A DNA stretch of 64,000 bases from Brevibacillus sp. GTDB taxonomy: Bacteria; Bacillota; Bacilli; Brevibacillales; Brevibacillaceae. This document shows positions 225 through 56,704 of the stretch, piece after piece (the first letter of the stretch is position 1; every line of letters starts with the position of its first letter). Both the position numbers and the translations under genes were made by a program. Location of the stretch: contig JACDOF010000001.1 in NCBI GenBank assembly GCA_017656235.1, positions 124,001-188,000 on the forward strand. The letters are read 5' to 3'. Under the pieces are notes generated by a model. It had not been told where the DNA came from, made no database searches, and was given only the letters and a program-made list of their open reading frames with translations.

Positions 225-300
225 CGGGGGTACGTTTCGGACCGTCTCGGAAAGACAGGTCAAGCCCTGTTCCCGCCGCTCCTTTTGCATACAACAGACA

Positions 301-322
301 AAGGCATCCGCACCGGATGCCT
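301..322. repeat. Short hairpin, left copy of an identical 22-bp pair
   Basis: A perfect 9-bp inverted repeat (AGGCATCCG / CGGATGCCT, 3-nt loop) lies here. The whole 22 bp occurs again, unchanged and in the same direction, at 698-719. The two copies enclose the foldback repeat fragments at 350-671. On the minus strand the hairpin is followed by TTTGTCTG, so a weak terminator role is possible. Confidence 0.7.
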
Positions 323-349
323 CAGCATGTTGACAAAGGCGTTTTGATA

Positions 350-396
350 GGAAAATGGCGCTCTCCTGTCAGAACTCGCTTTGTATTGATTCTGAA
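350..396 (-). repeat. Fragment of foldback repeat family 2 (end piece)
   Basis: The segment GGAAAATGGCGCTCTCCTG and the bases that follow match the conserved outer end of family 2, seen in full at 28190-28435 and 39466-39722. Only one arm is present. The partner arm and the middle are missing, so this copy cannot fold into the long hairpin. It lies next to a family 1 copy, as at the other composite sites. Confidence 0.65.
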
Positions 397-468
397 GTAT
401 GTATCGGCACTTCGGGCAAACAGGGGACATAGGGTGCCGAGAGTGAGTTTCAAAGCTTTCGCATGGGA

Positions 469-671
469 CGAGTGCGGGCGTTTTTCGCCAGCGAGCGGTT
501 TGGCCAACCTGCCAGCGAAACGACGTATCCGCAGGGAATTTGCAGCGGCAACAGCATCACGACGGCAGCGGGCGGCGTTTTGCCGCTGCCCCTGCGGATC
601 GTCGTGAAGCGGTCCTGGACTGCTTCGTCGCTGGTTGGCCACCAGGAGTGAGCGCGAAAAACACCCACTCG
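469..671 (-). repeat. Foldback repeat family 1, copy A
   Basis: About 200 bp forms an imperfect palindrome along its length. The outer arms pair GAGTGCGGGCGTTTTTCGCC with the end near 650-671. The next arms pair GGTTTGGCCAACCTGCCAGC with the segment near 629-645, and the inner arms pair the ATCCGCAGGG region with CCCTGCGGAT near 590-600. It is the reverse complement of the copies at 9711-9915 and 27924-28129 with scattered substitutions. Apparent reading frames inside differ between copies and look like by-products of the palindrome. Confidence 0.85.
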
Positions 672-697
672 TATTCACGACACTTTGTCAGCAATCT

Positions 698-719
698 AAG
701 GCATCCGCACCGGATGCCT
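698..719. repeat. Short hairpin, right copy of an identical 22-bp pair
   Basis: This is identical over 22 bp to 301-322. It bounds the repeat cluster on its right side and is followed at once by a run of DnaA-box-like sites. Confidence 0.7.
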
Positions 720-9591: not shown

Positions 9592-9710
9592 GTTGAGCCC
9601 TCCCATGTTTACGTCGGCGGTCTGTAACTCGTAGCTAAAGCGCCACAACTAAACTATAGCATCCTTTCCGGGATAAGGACACCCGTACTGCGGAAAACGT
9701 GTCGTAAGCA

Positions 9711-9915
9711 CGAGTGGGGCGTTTTTCGCGCTCACTTCCGGTGGCCAACCAGCGAAGAAGCAGACCGGGACCGCTTCACGCCGATCCGCAGGGGCAGCGT
9801 CAAAACGAGGTCTCGCTTTCGAGGTGATGCTGTTGCCGCTGCGATTTCCCTGCGGATACGTCGTTTCGCTGGCAGGTTGGCCAAACCGTTCGCTGGCGAA
9901 AAACGCCCGCACTCG
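9711..9915 (+). repeat. Foldback repeat family 1, copy B
   Basis: This is a full-length imperfect palindrome of about 205 bp, inverted relative to copy A. Outer arms are CGAGTGGGGCGTTTTTCGC and its partner near 9897-9915. The GGTGGCCAACCAGCGA arm pairs with the TCGCTGG..GGTTGGCCAAACC arm, and the GATCCGCAGGGGCAGC arm with the GCTGCGATTTCCCTGCGGAT arm. The centre (AACGAGGTCTCGCTT) is also partly self-complementary. It lies upstream of the DUF4166 operon. Confidence 0.85.
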
Positions 9916-9918
9916 TCA

Positions 9919-9978
9919 TCCTGCAGATTGAACACAAAACGAGTTTTGACAGGCGAGCGGCCATGTTTCGAATGAATA
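9919..9978 (+). repeat. Fragment of foldback repeat family 2 (end piece)
   Basis: The stretch with TTTTGACAGGCGAGCGGCCA and the following TTTCGAATGAA matches the family 2 end at 28193-28228. The rest of family 2 is missing. It stands directly beside copy B of family 1. Confidence 0.6.
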
Positions 9979-27809: not shown

Positions 27810-27923
27810 GCAGCAACACGTGAGGCCGTACACCCCTCTCCTCATTTTGCCGATTGTGCTGCACGTAAAGGTTTCCCATTGTGGGAGGGGTGGCTTCAGA
27901 TTGCCGACAAAGAGTCGAGAGCA

Positions 27924-28129
27924 CGAGTGGGGCGTTTTTCGCGCTCACGTAAGGTGGCCAACCAGCGAGGAAGCAGACCAGGACCGCTCCACGACGATCC
28001 GCAGGGGCAGCGGCAAAACGAGGTCTCGCTGCCGCCGTGATGCTGTTGCCGCTGCGATTTCCCTGCGGATACGTCGTTTCGCTGGCAGGTTGGCCAAACC
28101 GTTCGCTGGCGAAAAACGGCCCGCACTCG
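27924..28129 (+). repeat. Foldback repeat family 1, copy C
   Basis: This full-length copy of about 206 bp is an imperfect palindrome. Outer arms are CGAGTGGGGCGTTTTTCGC and GCGAAAAACGGCCCGCACTCG. Next come the arms GGTGGCCAACCAGCGA and TCGCTGGCAGGTTGGCC, then GATCCGCAGGGGCAGCGGCA with TGCCGCTGCGATTTCCCTGC. It is nearly identical to copy B over most of its length. Confidence 0.9.
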
Positions 28130-28189
28130 TTCCATGCGAGAGTTTTGGGATCCGACCAGCACCGTATGATGCCCTGTTCGTCCCAAGAC

Positions 28190-28435
28190 AGCGAGTTCTG
28201 ACAGGAGAGCGGCCATTTTCCGAATGAACGACTTTGCCAACCATCCAAGCGGAGCAAGCCCGAAGCGGGGGCATGTGGGCGCAACTTGGACAAGCGGCGG
28301 AGCAGCGCTGCTTTTGCGCCCGCCCGCTTCGGGATGGCGGAGCGGACAGTCCGGCTTCACGGGTGGTTGGCAACGGAGTGAGGAATGGAAAATGGCCGCT
28401 TCCCCTATCCAGACACCCTTTGTCTGCACGCTGAC
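28190..28435 (+). repeat. Foldback repeat family 2, full copy
   Basis: An imperfect palindrome of about 200 bp (core 28204-28405) starts GGAGAGCGGCCATTTTCC and ends GGAAAATGGCCGCTTCCCC. Inner arms TTGCCAACCATCC and GGGTGGTTGGCAA pair next, then the AGCCCGAAGCGGGGGCA arm with CCCGCCCGCTTCGGGAT. The centre is GCGGAGCAGCGCTGC. Flanks extend the conserved part on both sides. It is the reverse complement of the copy at 39466-39722. Confidence 0.88.
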
Positions 28436-28475
28436 GCCGCTCCTAGAGAAGCGGTGATCAGACTGCACGTGAACA

Positions 28476-28568
28476 CGAGTGGGGCGTTTTTCGCGCTCAC
28501 GTAAGGTGGCCAACCAGCGAGGAAGCAGACCAGGACCGCTCCACGACGATCCGCAGGGGCAGCGGCAA
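28476..28568 (+). repeat. Foldback repeat family 1, half copy D
   Basis: The first 93 bp of family 1 are present, nearly identical to copy C. The homology stops abruptly after GGGGCAGCGGCAA. The missing partner arm means no long hairpin can form. It is followed 16 bp later by a terminator-like hairpin. Confidence 0.85.
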
Positions 28569-33723: not shown

Positions 33724-33879
33724 TGCGGCGGGCAAATCTGCGCTGATCAGACAGCAGCGCGAGCAGGACAAAGGTCCCCTTAAATCGGCAGATAGGAGCA
33801 GGAATGGTGACGGAGGCTGTAGAAAAGGGAAACGCAGCCTGCGCAAAAATCATAAAAAAATCATAAGGGAGTCTTTCGC

Positions 33880-39431: not shown

Positions 39432-39462
39432 GAGGCGCCGCATTCACGGCGTCTCTTTTTTT
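39432..39462 (+). terminator. Rho-independent terminator of mgsR
   Basis: GAGGCGCCG pairs with CGGCGTCTC (G-U allowed) and is followed by seven T residues. Confidence 0.7.
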
Positions 39463-39465
39463 GCG

Positions 39466-39722
39466 TGTAAGACAAAGGGGGTTGGATAGGGGGGAGGCGG
39501 CCATTTTCCTTTCCTCACTCCGTGGCCAACGACCAATGGGGCTGGGCAGTCCGCTTCGCCATCCCGAAGCGGGTGGGCGCAAAAGCAGCGCTGCTCCGCC
39601 GTTTGTCCAGGTTGCGCCCACTATGCCCCCACTTCGGGCTTGCTGGGCTCGGATGGTTGGCCAAGTCGTTCATGCGGAAAATGGCCGCTCTCCTGTCAGA
39701 ACACGCTTTGTATTCAATCTGC
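39466..39722 (-). repeat. Foldback repeat family 2, full copy (inverted)
   Basis: This is the reverse complement of 28190-28435, with the same outer arms (GGCGGCCATTTTCC, GGAAAATGGCCGC) and the TGTCAGAACACGCTTTGTAT end. The inner CATCCCGAAGCGGG and CCCCACTTCGGG arms pair. It stands alone, without family 1 beside it, but the linker bases up to about 39722 match those seen between the two families elsewhere. Confidence 0.85.
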
Positions 39723-54862: not shown

Positions 54863-55276
54863 TCGGCAACCTGTTACAACTCTGCTCACTTGGGACGCAG
54901 CAGTTCCGGGGAGGGGAGGAAGGCGACATCTGGAAAAAAGAAGCATCCCGTACTCGATGAAGAGTGCCCGGGATGCTTCTATCTTTTCATTATAGGTATG
55001 ATTACCTACATGCTCTGTATCCTTCAATGCGCATACAGCTCTCAGCCCTTCTAGATTTGGTTCCATTCTTTCCAAGTCTTCTCTTGAGCCACCATACACT
55101 TCTATTGTTGAGTCAGACTTATCGTCCTGCCCTGTGGTATCAATACCTGCTTCTTCCCACTCGTCTCTTGCATGATCGACATAGCTGTCAAAATCATCTG
55201 GAGGAACATCGGAAAGCTGTATGAGGGAAACCTCACGTATAGTTTGATAAGGGGGAACGCGACCCAAAGGTCGCAC
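54824..55276 (-). CDS. Possible degenerate gene; reading frame without a natural end
   Basis: A frame of 150 codons runs on the minus strand. Residues about 20-105 (VPPDDFDSYVDHARDEWEEAG, then DLERMEPNLEGLRAVC, then GNHTYNEKIEA) look like real protein, but I know no family. The rest runs through a strong terminator hairpin (54939-54980) and into bshC in antisense. A +1 shift near 54990 would give a stop just before the hairpin, which suggests a frameshift at the end. The region is visibly more AT-rich than its neighbours. Confidence 0.3.
   Translation of the reverse strand: MRPLGRVPPYQTIREVSLIQLSDVPPDDFDSYVDHARDEWEEAGIDTTGQDDKSDSTIEVYGGSREDLERMEPNLEGLRAVCALKDTEHVGNHTYNEKIEASRALFIEYGMLLFSRCRLPPLPGTAASQVSRVVTGCRSQVDHLVSCIKR
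54933..54980 (-). terminator. Strong terminator on the minus strand
   Basis: AGAAGCATCCCG pairs perfectly with CGGGATGCTTCT (54969-54980), 12 bp with an 18-nt loop. On the minus strand it is followed by six T residues. It also lies just downstream of bshC on the plus strand, where it is followed by ATCTTTTC. Confidence 0.7.
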
Positions 55277-55334
55277 GATTCAGTTCCTACTCTACCTTGA
55301 TTGCCAGTCAAGGTGGATGAAGACAGGAACAAGC

Positions 55335-56627
55335 TCATGAAACGCGACAGCGCGCACGTGAGACACGCTGTCTGAAAAAAGCGAGCAGGATGACGATGAC
55401 CAGAGGATACAGGGCTGCCCACCCGAGAAATGGGTAGATGGACAGGGTGACAACGAGCGAGATCCAGGCTGCCCATCTTCCTGCTTTGTGATCTGAGAGC
55501 AGGCGTATTCCGGCAAAACAGCCGCCAATATAGGTGGCAAAGAACGTGGCATTGGGTAATTGGATCAACTGGGCCAGGGTAATGGTGTCTGTCATCAGGA
55601 CCCCGATAACCAGAGCAAAACAAGCGGCGAGAAAGGCGAGTCCTCCGACCGGTGTACCGTACTTCCGATGCAGTCGGCCAAACCATGTCGGGGCAAAACC
55701 AGCCTGTGCCAATGCGTAAGCCGTACGGGCAGCGGCACTGACGTAGGAGTTGGTCGACGCAATACAGATAAACAGTGCTGCTCCGGCGGCTGACCATCCC
55801 CCCACCGGTCCGAAAGAGAGCTGAATCATGATGCTGAGTGATGCTTCTGACATTCCACTGCCATAGCTGCCTGTTGCGACCGTCATAAAGGCGACGGCGA
55901 AGTAGAGTAAGGCGATGATGCCGGCACTCCACAATACACCGCGGATCGCGTTTCGTTCCGGATTGACGAATTCCGCCGAAAGATGGGTGACCGCTTCCCA
56001 ACCGATAAAACACCAGAACAACAAGCCGGCTGCTTTCACCACGCCAAGCCAGCCGTGCGGCAGAAACGGCGTAAAGTGGTCGGAGGAGACATTCGGCATG
56101 GCCGCAGCTACGGCCAGCAGGATAATCACCAGGATCATCGAGACGACCAGGGTCTGAACGCGGCCGGCGACCCGCAGTCCGTACAAATTCATCATAAGCA
56201 CGGCGAGCAAAAGCAGGGCGGCCAGCGCGTATGCGTGCATGTTGCCGATGCCGAGCAGACCAGCCAGATACGTTGTGCCCGTAACCGCTACAATCGGTGC
56301 ACCCAACGGCACGGAAAGAAGAAAGAACCATCCTACCAGATTGGCGAGCCAATCACCGTAGGCCAGTCGGACAAAGTGCGAGACTCCCCCGGCGTGAGGA
56401 TAACGGGCAGCCAACAGCCCCATGGTGACGCCCATGGGCAGAACGAGAAGAGACATTCCAGCCCAGGCGATGACAGAAGCAGGACCGGCGATCTCGGCGG
56501 AAAGACCGGGGATCAACAAGATGCCTGAACCAAGCACGGCTCCGATGTAGAGGGCGATGATTTGTGGCAGGGAGAGTATCCCTTTTCCGACAGGTTTAGA
56601 GACAGTTTTAGAGGTCAGATCAGCCAT
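55335..56627 (-). CDS. APC-family amino acid permease
   Basis: The 430-residue protein has about 12 hydrophobic segments. The first carries the APC pattern LPQIIALYIGAVLGSGILLIPGLSA, and the sixth GLLFWCFIGWEAVTHLSAEFVNPERN. It is closest in style to YjeH/YcaM-type exporters or uptake carriers; the substrate is not clear. The ATG at 56627 follows AAAGGAG. It is divergent from the LysR gene, which may control it. Confidence 0.82.
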   Translation of the reverse strand: MADLTSKTVSKPVGKGILSLPQIIALYIGAVLGSGILLIPGLSAEIAGPASVIAWAGMSLLVLPMGVTMGLLAARYPHAGGVSHFVRLAYGDWLANLVGWFFLLSVPLGAPIVAVTGTTYLAGLLGIGNMHAYALAALLLLAVLMMNLYGLRVAGRVQTLVVSMILVIILLAVAAAMPNVSSDHFTPFLPHGWLGVVKAAGLLFWCFIGWEAVTHLSAEFVNPERNAIRGVLWSAGIIALLYFAVAFMTVATGSYGSGMSEASLSIMIQLSFGPVGGWSAAGAALFICIASTNSYVSAAARTAYALAQAGFAPTWFGRLHRKYGTPVGGLAFLAACFALVIGVLMTDTITLAQLIQLPNATFFATYIGGCFAGIRLLSDHKAGRWAAWISLVVTLSIYPFLGWAALYPLVIVILLAFFRQRVSRARCRVS

Positions 56628-56683
56628 CGTTTTTCTCCTTTGCGAATCTGTGTGACCAAAGTGTAGCATAGACACTGTCATCA

Positions 56684-56704
56684 TAAATAACTATAATTAT
56701 TGAT
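56684..56704. promoter_or_regulatory. AT-rich inverted repeat, possible LysR operator
   Basis: ATAAATAA, a six-base gap and TTATTGAT form an interrupted inverted repeat of the T-N11-A type between the divergent permease and LysR genes. Confidence 0.4.

Follow-up and report, generated by a model that had tools for sequence, protein, structure and literature searches.

Foldback repeats of a Brevibacillus genome are very probably parts of IS1182-linked MITEs inserted at hairpins

The foldback repeat described here is very probably the inner part of a family of non-autonomous transposons (MITEs) moved by an IS1182-family transposase into hairpins. That the repeats are MITEs follows from the IS1182-family insertion sequences (IS) of relatives, which have matching ends and show the same duplication of hairpins. 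New here are IS1182-linked foldback MITEs with whole-hairpin duplication; hairpin targeting in the IS1182 family is already known. A literature search, with most subscription journals outside its reach, found no MITEs of such kind.

Results

Elements in the 64-kb window

The window is the whole stretch of 64,000 nucleotides that was analysed (Brevibacillus sp., GCA_017656235.1, contig JACDOF010000001.1, positions 124,001 to 188,000). An initial annotation had reported a 205-bp palindrome at four sites, and all of these, 469–671 (minus strand), 9711–9915, 27924–28129 and a half copy within 28468–28568, are present. A solitary second foldback at ~39462–39721 is missing from its site list. The nested arms do pair, GGGCGTTTTTCGC with GCGAAAAACGCCC and TGGCCAACC with GGTTGGCCA, and the sequence 27915–28140 forms a long foldback of −114.8 kcal/mol (z = −6.1; none of 200 dinucleotide shuffles was as good). 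The palindrome had been taken as the unit; the conserved sequence extends over 27897–28433 and includes a second foldback. The features of the window are:

27897..28433, plus strand: complete two-unit element (blastn of other genomic copies, sequence)
27924..28129, plus strand: foldback unit A core, the palindrome of the initial annotation (sequence, fold, genomic matches)
28193..28433, plus strand: foldback unit B, AGCGGCCATTTTCC ... GGAAAATGGCCGCT (homology with elements of ~260 bp in another genome of the genus)
28468..28568, plus strand: tandem half copy of unit A (sequence comparison, blastn)
302..322, no strand: target duplication copy 1, hairpin AGGCATCCGCACCGGATGCCT (exact 21-bp repeat)
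323..698, minus strand: element of unit A and a unit B remnant, inside a hairpin (blastn; ends by eye)
469..671, minus strand: foldback unit A core (genomic matches)
699..719, no strand: target duplication copy 2, the identical 21-bp hairpin AGGCATCCGCACCGGATGCCT (exact repeat)
~9684..9976, plus strand: element of unit A plus a portion of the link (blastn; left end degenerate, placed by eye)
9711..9915, plus strand: foldback unit A core (genomic matches)
~39462..39721, minus strand: solitary unit B element (blastn; ends by eye)
33736..33778, minus strand: short fragment weakly resembling the ~250-bp C element (blastn E 2.5e-5 and 3e-4)

At the central site the conserved stretch begins with CAGATTGC (27897), takes in the palindrome, the link and the related second foldback, and finishes with GCACGCTG (28433), in the order left end CAGATTGCCGACAAAG, unit A, link, unit B, right end GTCTGCACGCTG. 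Neither at this site nor around the element at ~9684..9976 was a target duplication recognised.

The intergenic placement claimed for the copies is consistent with the gene content, which falls short of proof: Pfam-recognised genes adjoin the sites at 9711–9915 and 27924–28129, and the ORF beside 469–671 has no Pfam match. When the eight mechanically called ORFs overlapping the sites at 469–671, 27924–28129 and 39462–39721 were scanned with Pfam, none scored above the cut-off, so that no transposase gene was found inside the elements. At the gathering score, Rfam returned no match to the window's elements or to those of loci L034, L061, L111 and L078. A SAM riboswitch (80.5 bits) lies at 232–357 (minus) of L078, ~0.9 kb from a G037 element, and is probably unrelated. 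The window also has an Rfam group II intron match at 55212–55295 on the plus strand (42.5 bits, gathering 40), with an amino-acid permease gene nearby at 55335–56684.

Copy number, extent and distribution

The count of four sites proved a large undercount, as 40 or more copies of the palindrome, full or partial, occur in the genome, with 84–100% identity (best 40 of 131 candidates); about five of the 40 listed matches are clearly partial. The extent of the element was determined by orienting 30 of the 40 listed copies and reading their flanks outwards. These share a left end, typically CAGATTGCAGACAAAGTGTCGTGAATA, immediately 5′ of the palindrome. On the right side, many copies continue with a link and then a second foldback, AGCGGCCATTTTCC ... 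GGAAAATGGCCGC, and the right end, like CTTTGTCTGCACGCTG, is the inverse of the left end. The actual unit is a longer, gene-less element with inverted ends of 16 bp (CAGNNTGNNGACAAAG), and the 205-bp foldback is one module thereof. Nineteen elements of 250–613 bp, short as MITEs are, have the terminal inverted repeat CAGNNTGNNGACAAAG within the allowed mismatches. The unit-A pairs L003/L004, L005/L006 and L021/L025 lie in direct orientation, 470–526 bp apart, as if they were tandemly duplicated two-unit elements.

A related type of ~250 bp, designated C, has at least 41 listed matches, many of them partial (best 40 of 85 candidates scored); six listed matches have ≥92% identity over at least 240 of 253 bases. 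Both unit A and unit B can be aligned with an element of genome G002, B more closely and in the opposite orientation. Since B aligns inverted, the composite gives the impression of two units in inverted arrangement; the orientation of unit A is less certain because each unit is itself a foldback.

Among 39 Brevibacillaceae genomes the palindrome is present in one, the window's own. The exact end pattern CAGNNTGNNGACAAAGTG occurs in 18 of the 39, against two matches in all for the reversed control, with 16 sites in the window's genome, 16 in G002 and four each in G001 and G037. Many single matches in other genomes are coding coincidences, as are L114 and L122; true elements exist in G001, G002, G005, G028 and G037. 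A looser, poorly chosen end pattern gave 62 matches in six genomes versus 64 in its reversed control. Exact DNA patterns were also run against a named GTDB collection, which may have left out very near genomes: the first had no match, and the second had five, in four unrelated genera and apparently by chance. One and the same element, with a shared flank, is found in two species (L105 in G028 and L108 in G005), where the flanking hairpin copies differ; this insertion looks as if it predates the split of the two species.

Duplication of whole hairpins at the target

Many elements lie at hairpins, and the well-preserved ones are flanked on both sides by the whole host hairpin, usually an intrinsic terminator. 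In a search of 113 candidate end pairs, 27 scored 9.5 or more, and 336 mispaired flanks reached at most 5.0. Restriction to distinct sites that score 10 or more left 23 elements from nine genomes, all of which score at least 14: eight in G002, five in the window's genome, three in G001, two in G037 and one each in G005, G028, G031, G004 and G026. They comprise 19 MITEs and four IS. The duplications are 19–31 bp long, and those of the 19 MITEs, in six genomes, 19–30 bp.

At 19 of the 23 sites the centre of the duplication lies no more than 1 nt from that of the hairpin, taking whichever of the two copies folds better, versus 37 of 920 random single windows. A T-rich stretch adjoins one or both sides of the hairpin at 18 of 23 sites (81 of 1080 in the control). 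Duplication length and the length of the GC-bounded hairpin given by RNAfold correlate weakly by Pearson (0.39, p 0.07) and moderately by Spearman (0.61, p 0.002; n = 23), because A/T tails and chance extensions alter the stems, and the centring test was relied on instead. A per-column pairing profile of 25 rows was blurred by off-by-one duplications; two of its rows, L009 with 9.5 points and the second of two pairings for L119, were later dropped.

Most unit-A copies of the window's genome have no recognisable duplication, for which age, truncation or tandem rearrangement may be responsible. Ten of the 40 listed copies pass an automatic duplication test, against a control rate of 6.9%; the control is contaminated, since the flanking sequences are repetitive too. 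Of the ten, at least L004, L005 and L024 reflect repeated units and not hairpins.

IS1182-family elements with matching ends

The first lead was a single locus of G005, in which the same end lies beside a terminator and is followed by a transposase remnant. The IS1182 catalytic domain PF13751 has matches in 27 of the 39 genomes of the family. The genus of the window's genome also includes G001, in which a 1545-bp IS is bounded by CAGATTGCAGACAAAC and CAGCCTGTAGACAAAG; against the NCBIfam IS1182 model its transposase reaches 491.5 bits (cut-off 270). The two proteins scanned with NF033551, L186 and L161, gave 491.5 and 467.2 bits against 270, and PF13751 and PF05598 were also above cut-off in the partner transposase.

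Eighteen IS copies with both such ends were found among the loci fetched (G001 11, G031 three, G004 two, G026 two). The ends in G001 and G031 are the same as those of the MITEs, which thus have autonomous relatives whose ends match; over its first 15 bases the left end of the G001 IS is identical to that of two G001 MITEs. The IS of G004 and G026 have near ends, with GAGAAA for GACAAA. A whole-hairpin duplication of 19–31 bp flanks 15 of the 18 copies, imperfectly at L194 (score 6.0). The stem-loop stands on both sides of these 15 and is not replaced in the manner of IS1272. The other three have no hairpin duplication, with 8 bp by eye at L160 and none at L188 and L195. Plasmid-borne relatives behave alike: two of the five fetched had resolvable ends, and in both the hairpin is duplicated, over 30 bp in Sutcliffiella and 24 bp in Peribacillus. 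Single ends only were seen at the PF13751 loci L173, L174 and L178, and other fetched PF13751 loci (e.g. L196, L197, L200–L203, L206) are without these ends.

A helper was also sought in the window's own genome. No PF13751 match lies near its elements, and the sole match, L071 (G000:C12:14960-18136), is broken; as a candidate helper it was rejected, having other ends by eye and a frame that runs into apparent group II intron reverse-transcriptase sequence. A tblastn search of this genome with the partner transposase returned nothing, an outcome that is informative only beside a positive genome. The assembly is a draft of 31 contigs, and a collapsed multi-copy helper IS is therefore possible. 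The IS1182-family transposase still carried by relatives would most likely mobilise these MITEs, in trans.

Candidates for an IS30 partner were likewise rejected. The best HTH_38 match, L128, belongs to an IS30-like gene that is truncated at a contig end, with no matching end upstream by eye, and the multi-copy HTH_38 matches of 418–441 aa are, by eye, IstA genes of IS21 type. An element of IS21 type (by eye) lies inside an IS1182-type remnant at a terminator at L150 (G005:C1:1367429-1370515), a case of nested insertions.

Maintenance of the foldback

Within the genome, unit A shows compensatory change in none of 54 consensus pairs (30 of the 40 copies), as expected after a recent burst. Across species and genera, the elements are homologous with ~58–76% identity over the aligned parts. 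A cross-family alignment of 12 units from four genomes covers 31 pairs, at which 92.7% of cells are paired versus 84.3% after shuffling, slid controls giving 34–47%. Double changes occur at nine pairs versus 5.7 in shuffles (six of 500 reach it) and in 30 cells versus 10.5 (0 of 500), an excess that is supportive and not proof, the sequences being related and the structure predicted on the same alignment. Further pair types are not above the shuffled level (20 versus 19.0; 200 of 500). Compensatory changes between diverged families thus indicate that the foldback is old and maintained; it would be kept by selection or by a DNA-level process.

Discussion

On the most economical mechanism, which corresponds to a pathway given as a possibility in PMC5678879 (pathway b of Fig 13), an IS1182-family DDE transposase would bind the ends that its own IS shares with the MITE. 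A DNA hairpin, in most cases a Rho-independent terminator, would be extruded, and the 3′ ends of the element would be joined to its two 5′ feet. The whole hairpin would then be copied by gap repair, giving the arrangement hairpin–element–hairpin. The T-tract would stay with one hairpin copy, which should still terminate, so that insertion would cost little. In the window's species, two ~260-bp units (A and B) are joined in a ~550-bp composite, which would have spread together with the ~250-bp C type.

The initial annotation had interpreted the palindrome as a foldback repeat family between genes, which stands, and had considered a long RNA hairpin or a DNA cruciform; as a stand-alone RNA or cruciform repeat it does not hold up. 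Two observations of a kind that the initial annotation itself had listed as contrary evidence lead to a MITE-type mobile element instead: related genomes have elements that carry a transposase, match in their ends and show the same target duplication, and arm substitutions within the genome are not compensatory. The idea of an RNA or a cruciform is still not dead, given the compensatory changes between diverged families. A rival explanation would have the elements act as structured RNAs or terminator-like regulators, selected for a long transcript hairpin and with their mobility long past. The 30 double-changed cells across families speak for this, as does the position of the elements downstream of terminator hairpins. 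We nevertheless consider it improbable: covariation is absent among 30 copies from the window's genome, further pair types do not exceed shuffles, Rfam has no match, and the target duplications together with the IS-matched ends explain the distribution without a role for RNA.

The palindromic form, the many copies and their location between genes would also suit REP/BIME-type palindromes, spread as single-strand hairpins by a REP-associated tyrosine transposase (RAYT). This is contradicted by the paired inverted ends and the 19–31-bp target duplications, and DDE-type IS with the same ends exist; we know of no HUH enzyme that leaves such a target duplication. We therefore hold it to be very improbable. 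Hardly more credit can be given to mobilisation by an IS30-family transposase like that of IS1630. IS1630, an IS30-family element of Mycoplasma fermentans, reportedly duplicates the inverted repeats of terminators with a variable length of 19–26 bp, the same insertion signature as here although its transposase belongs to a family other than IS1182, and the window's genome has one IS30-like fragment. By eye, no such end lies upstream of the gene of that fragment, whereas the ends of the IS1182 elements do match, with the signature in common. Mobilisation by the IS1182-family transposase remains the preferred explanation.

Direct repeats in the IS1182 family reportedly range from 0 to 60 bp. The family is not uniform, since ISPse1, one of its members, is tabulated with a 4-bp direct repeat in the part of PMC3281130 used here. 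Palindromic targets of some IS1182 members are attributed to Siguier et al. 2015 in PMC5678879 and PMC4923244. As described in the sections of these two papers drawn on here, IS1272 and TnSha1 target stem-loops, including terminators, with no sequence consensus and delete or replace the stem-loop with no duplication; duplication of a whole stem-loop figures as the hypothetical pathway b (Fig 13 of PMC5678879). The present elements resemble those two, as so described, in the transposase family that NCBIfam assigns to their IS partners, in their 16-bp inverted ends and in their stem-loop targets. Unlike them, they duplicate the whole stem-loop that is lost there, and they are gene-less foldbacks. 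The pneumococcal BOX and RUP elements are likewise short, gene-less and mostly intergenic, with stable foldback transcripts (PMC10969869). This likeness is one of description, and the sections of PMC10969869 drawn on here describe no duplication of a target hairpin.

A tentative idea, which we regard as unlikely on balance, is that the transposase reads DNA shape twice, with the foldback as preferred substrate and the hairpin as target, so that the hairpin and not a fixed cut spacing sets the length of the duplication. If the idea is true, the maintained foldback would be a functional part of mobility, and insertion would convert each terminator to a 3′ foldback that is transcribed, with a restored terminator behind it.

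The duplication left by a transposase is usually of fixed length. The variable duplications of 19–31 bp found here, centred on hairpins in several species, are evidence from nature that strands are joined at hairpin feet under the direction of structure, a pathway proposed but not seen for IS1272. The family allows hairpin duplication and hairpin loss to be compared between related enzymes. It accounts for a large group of the repeats that these genomes contain and points to terminators as low-cost insertion sites.
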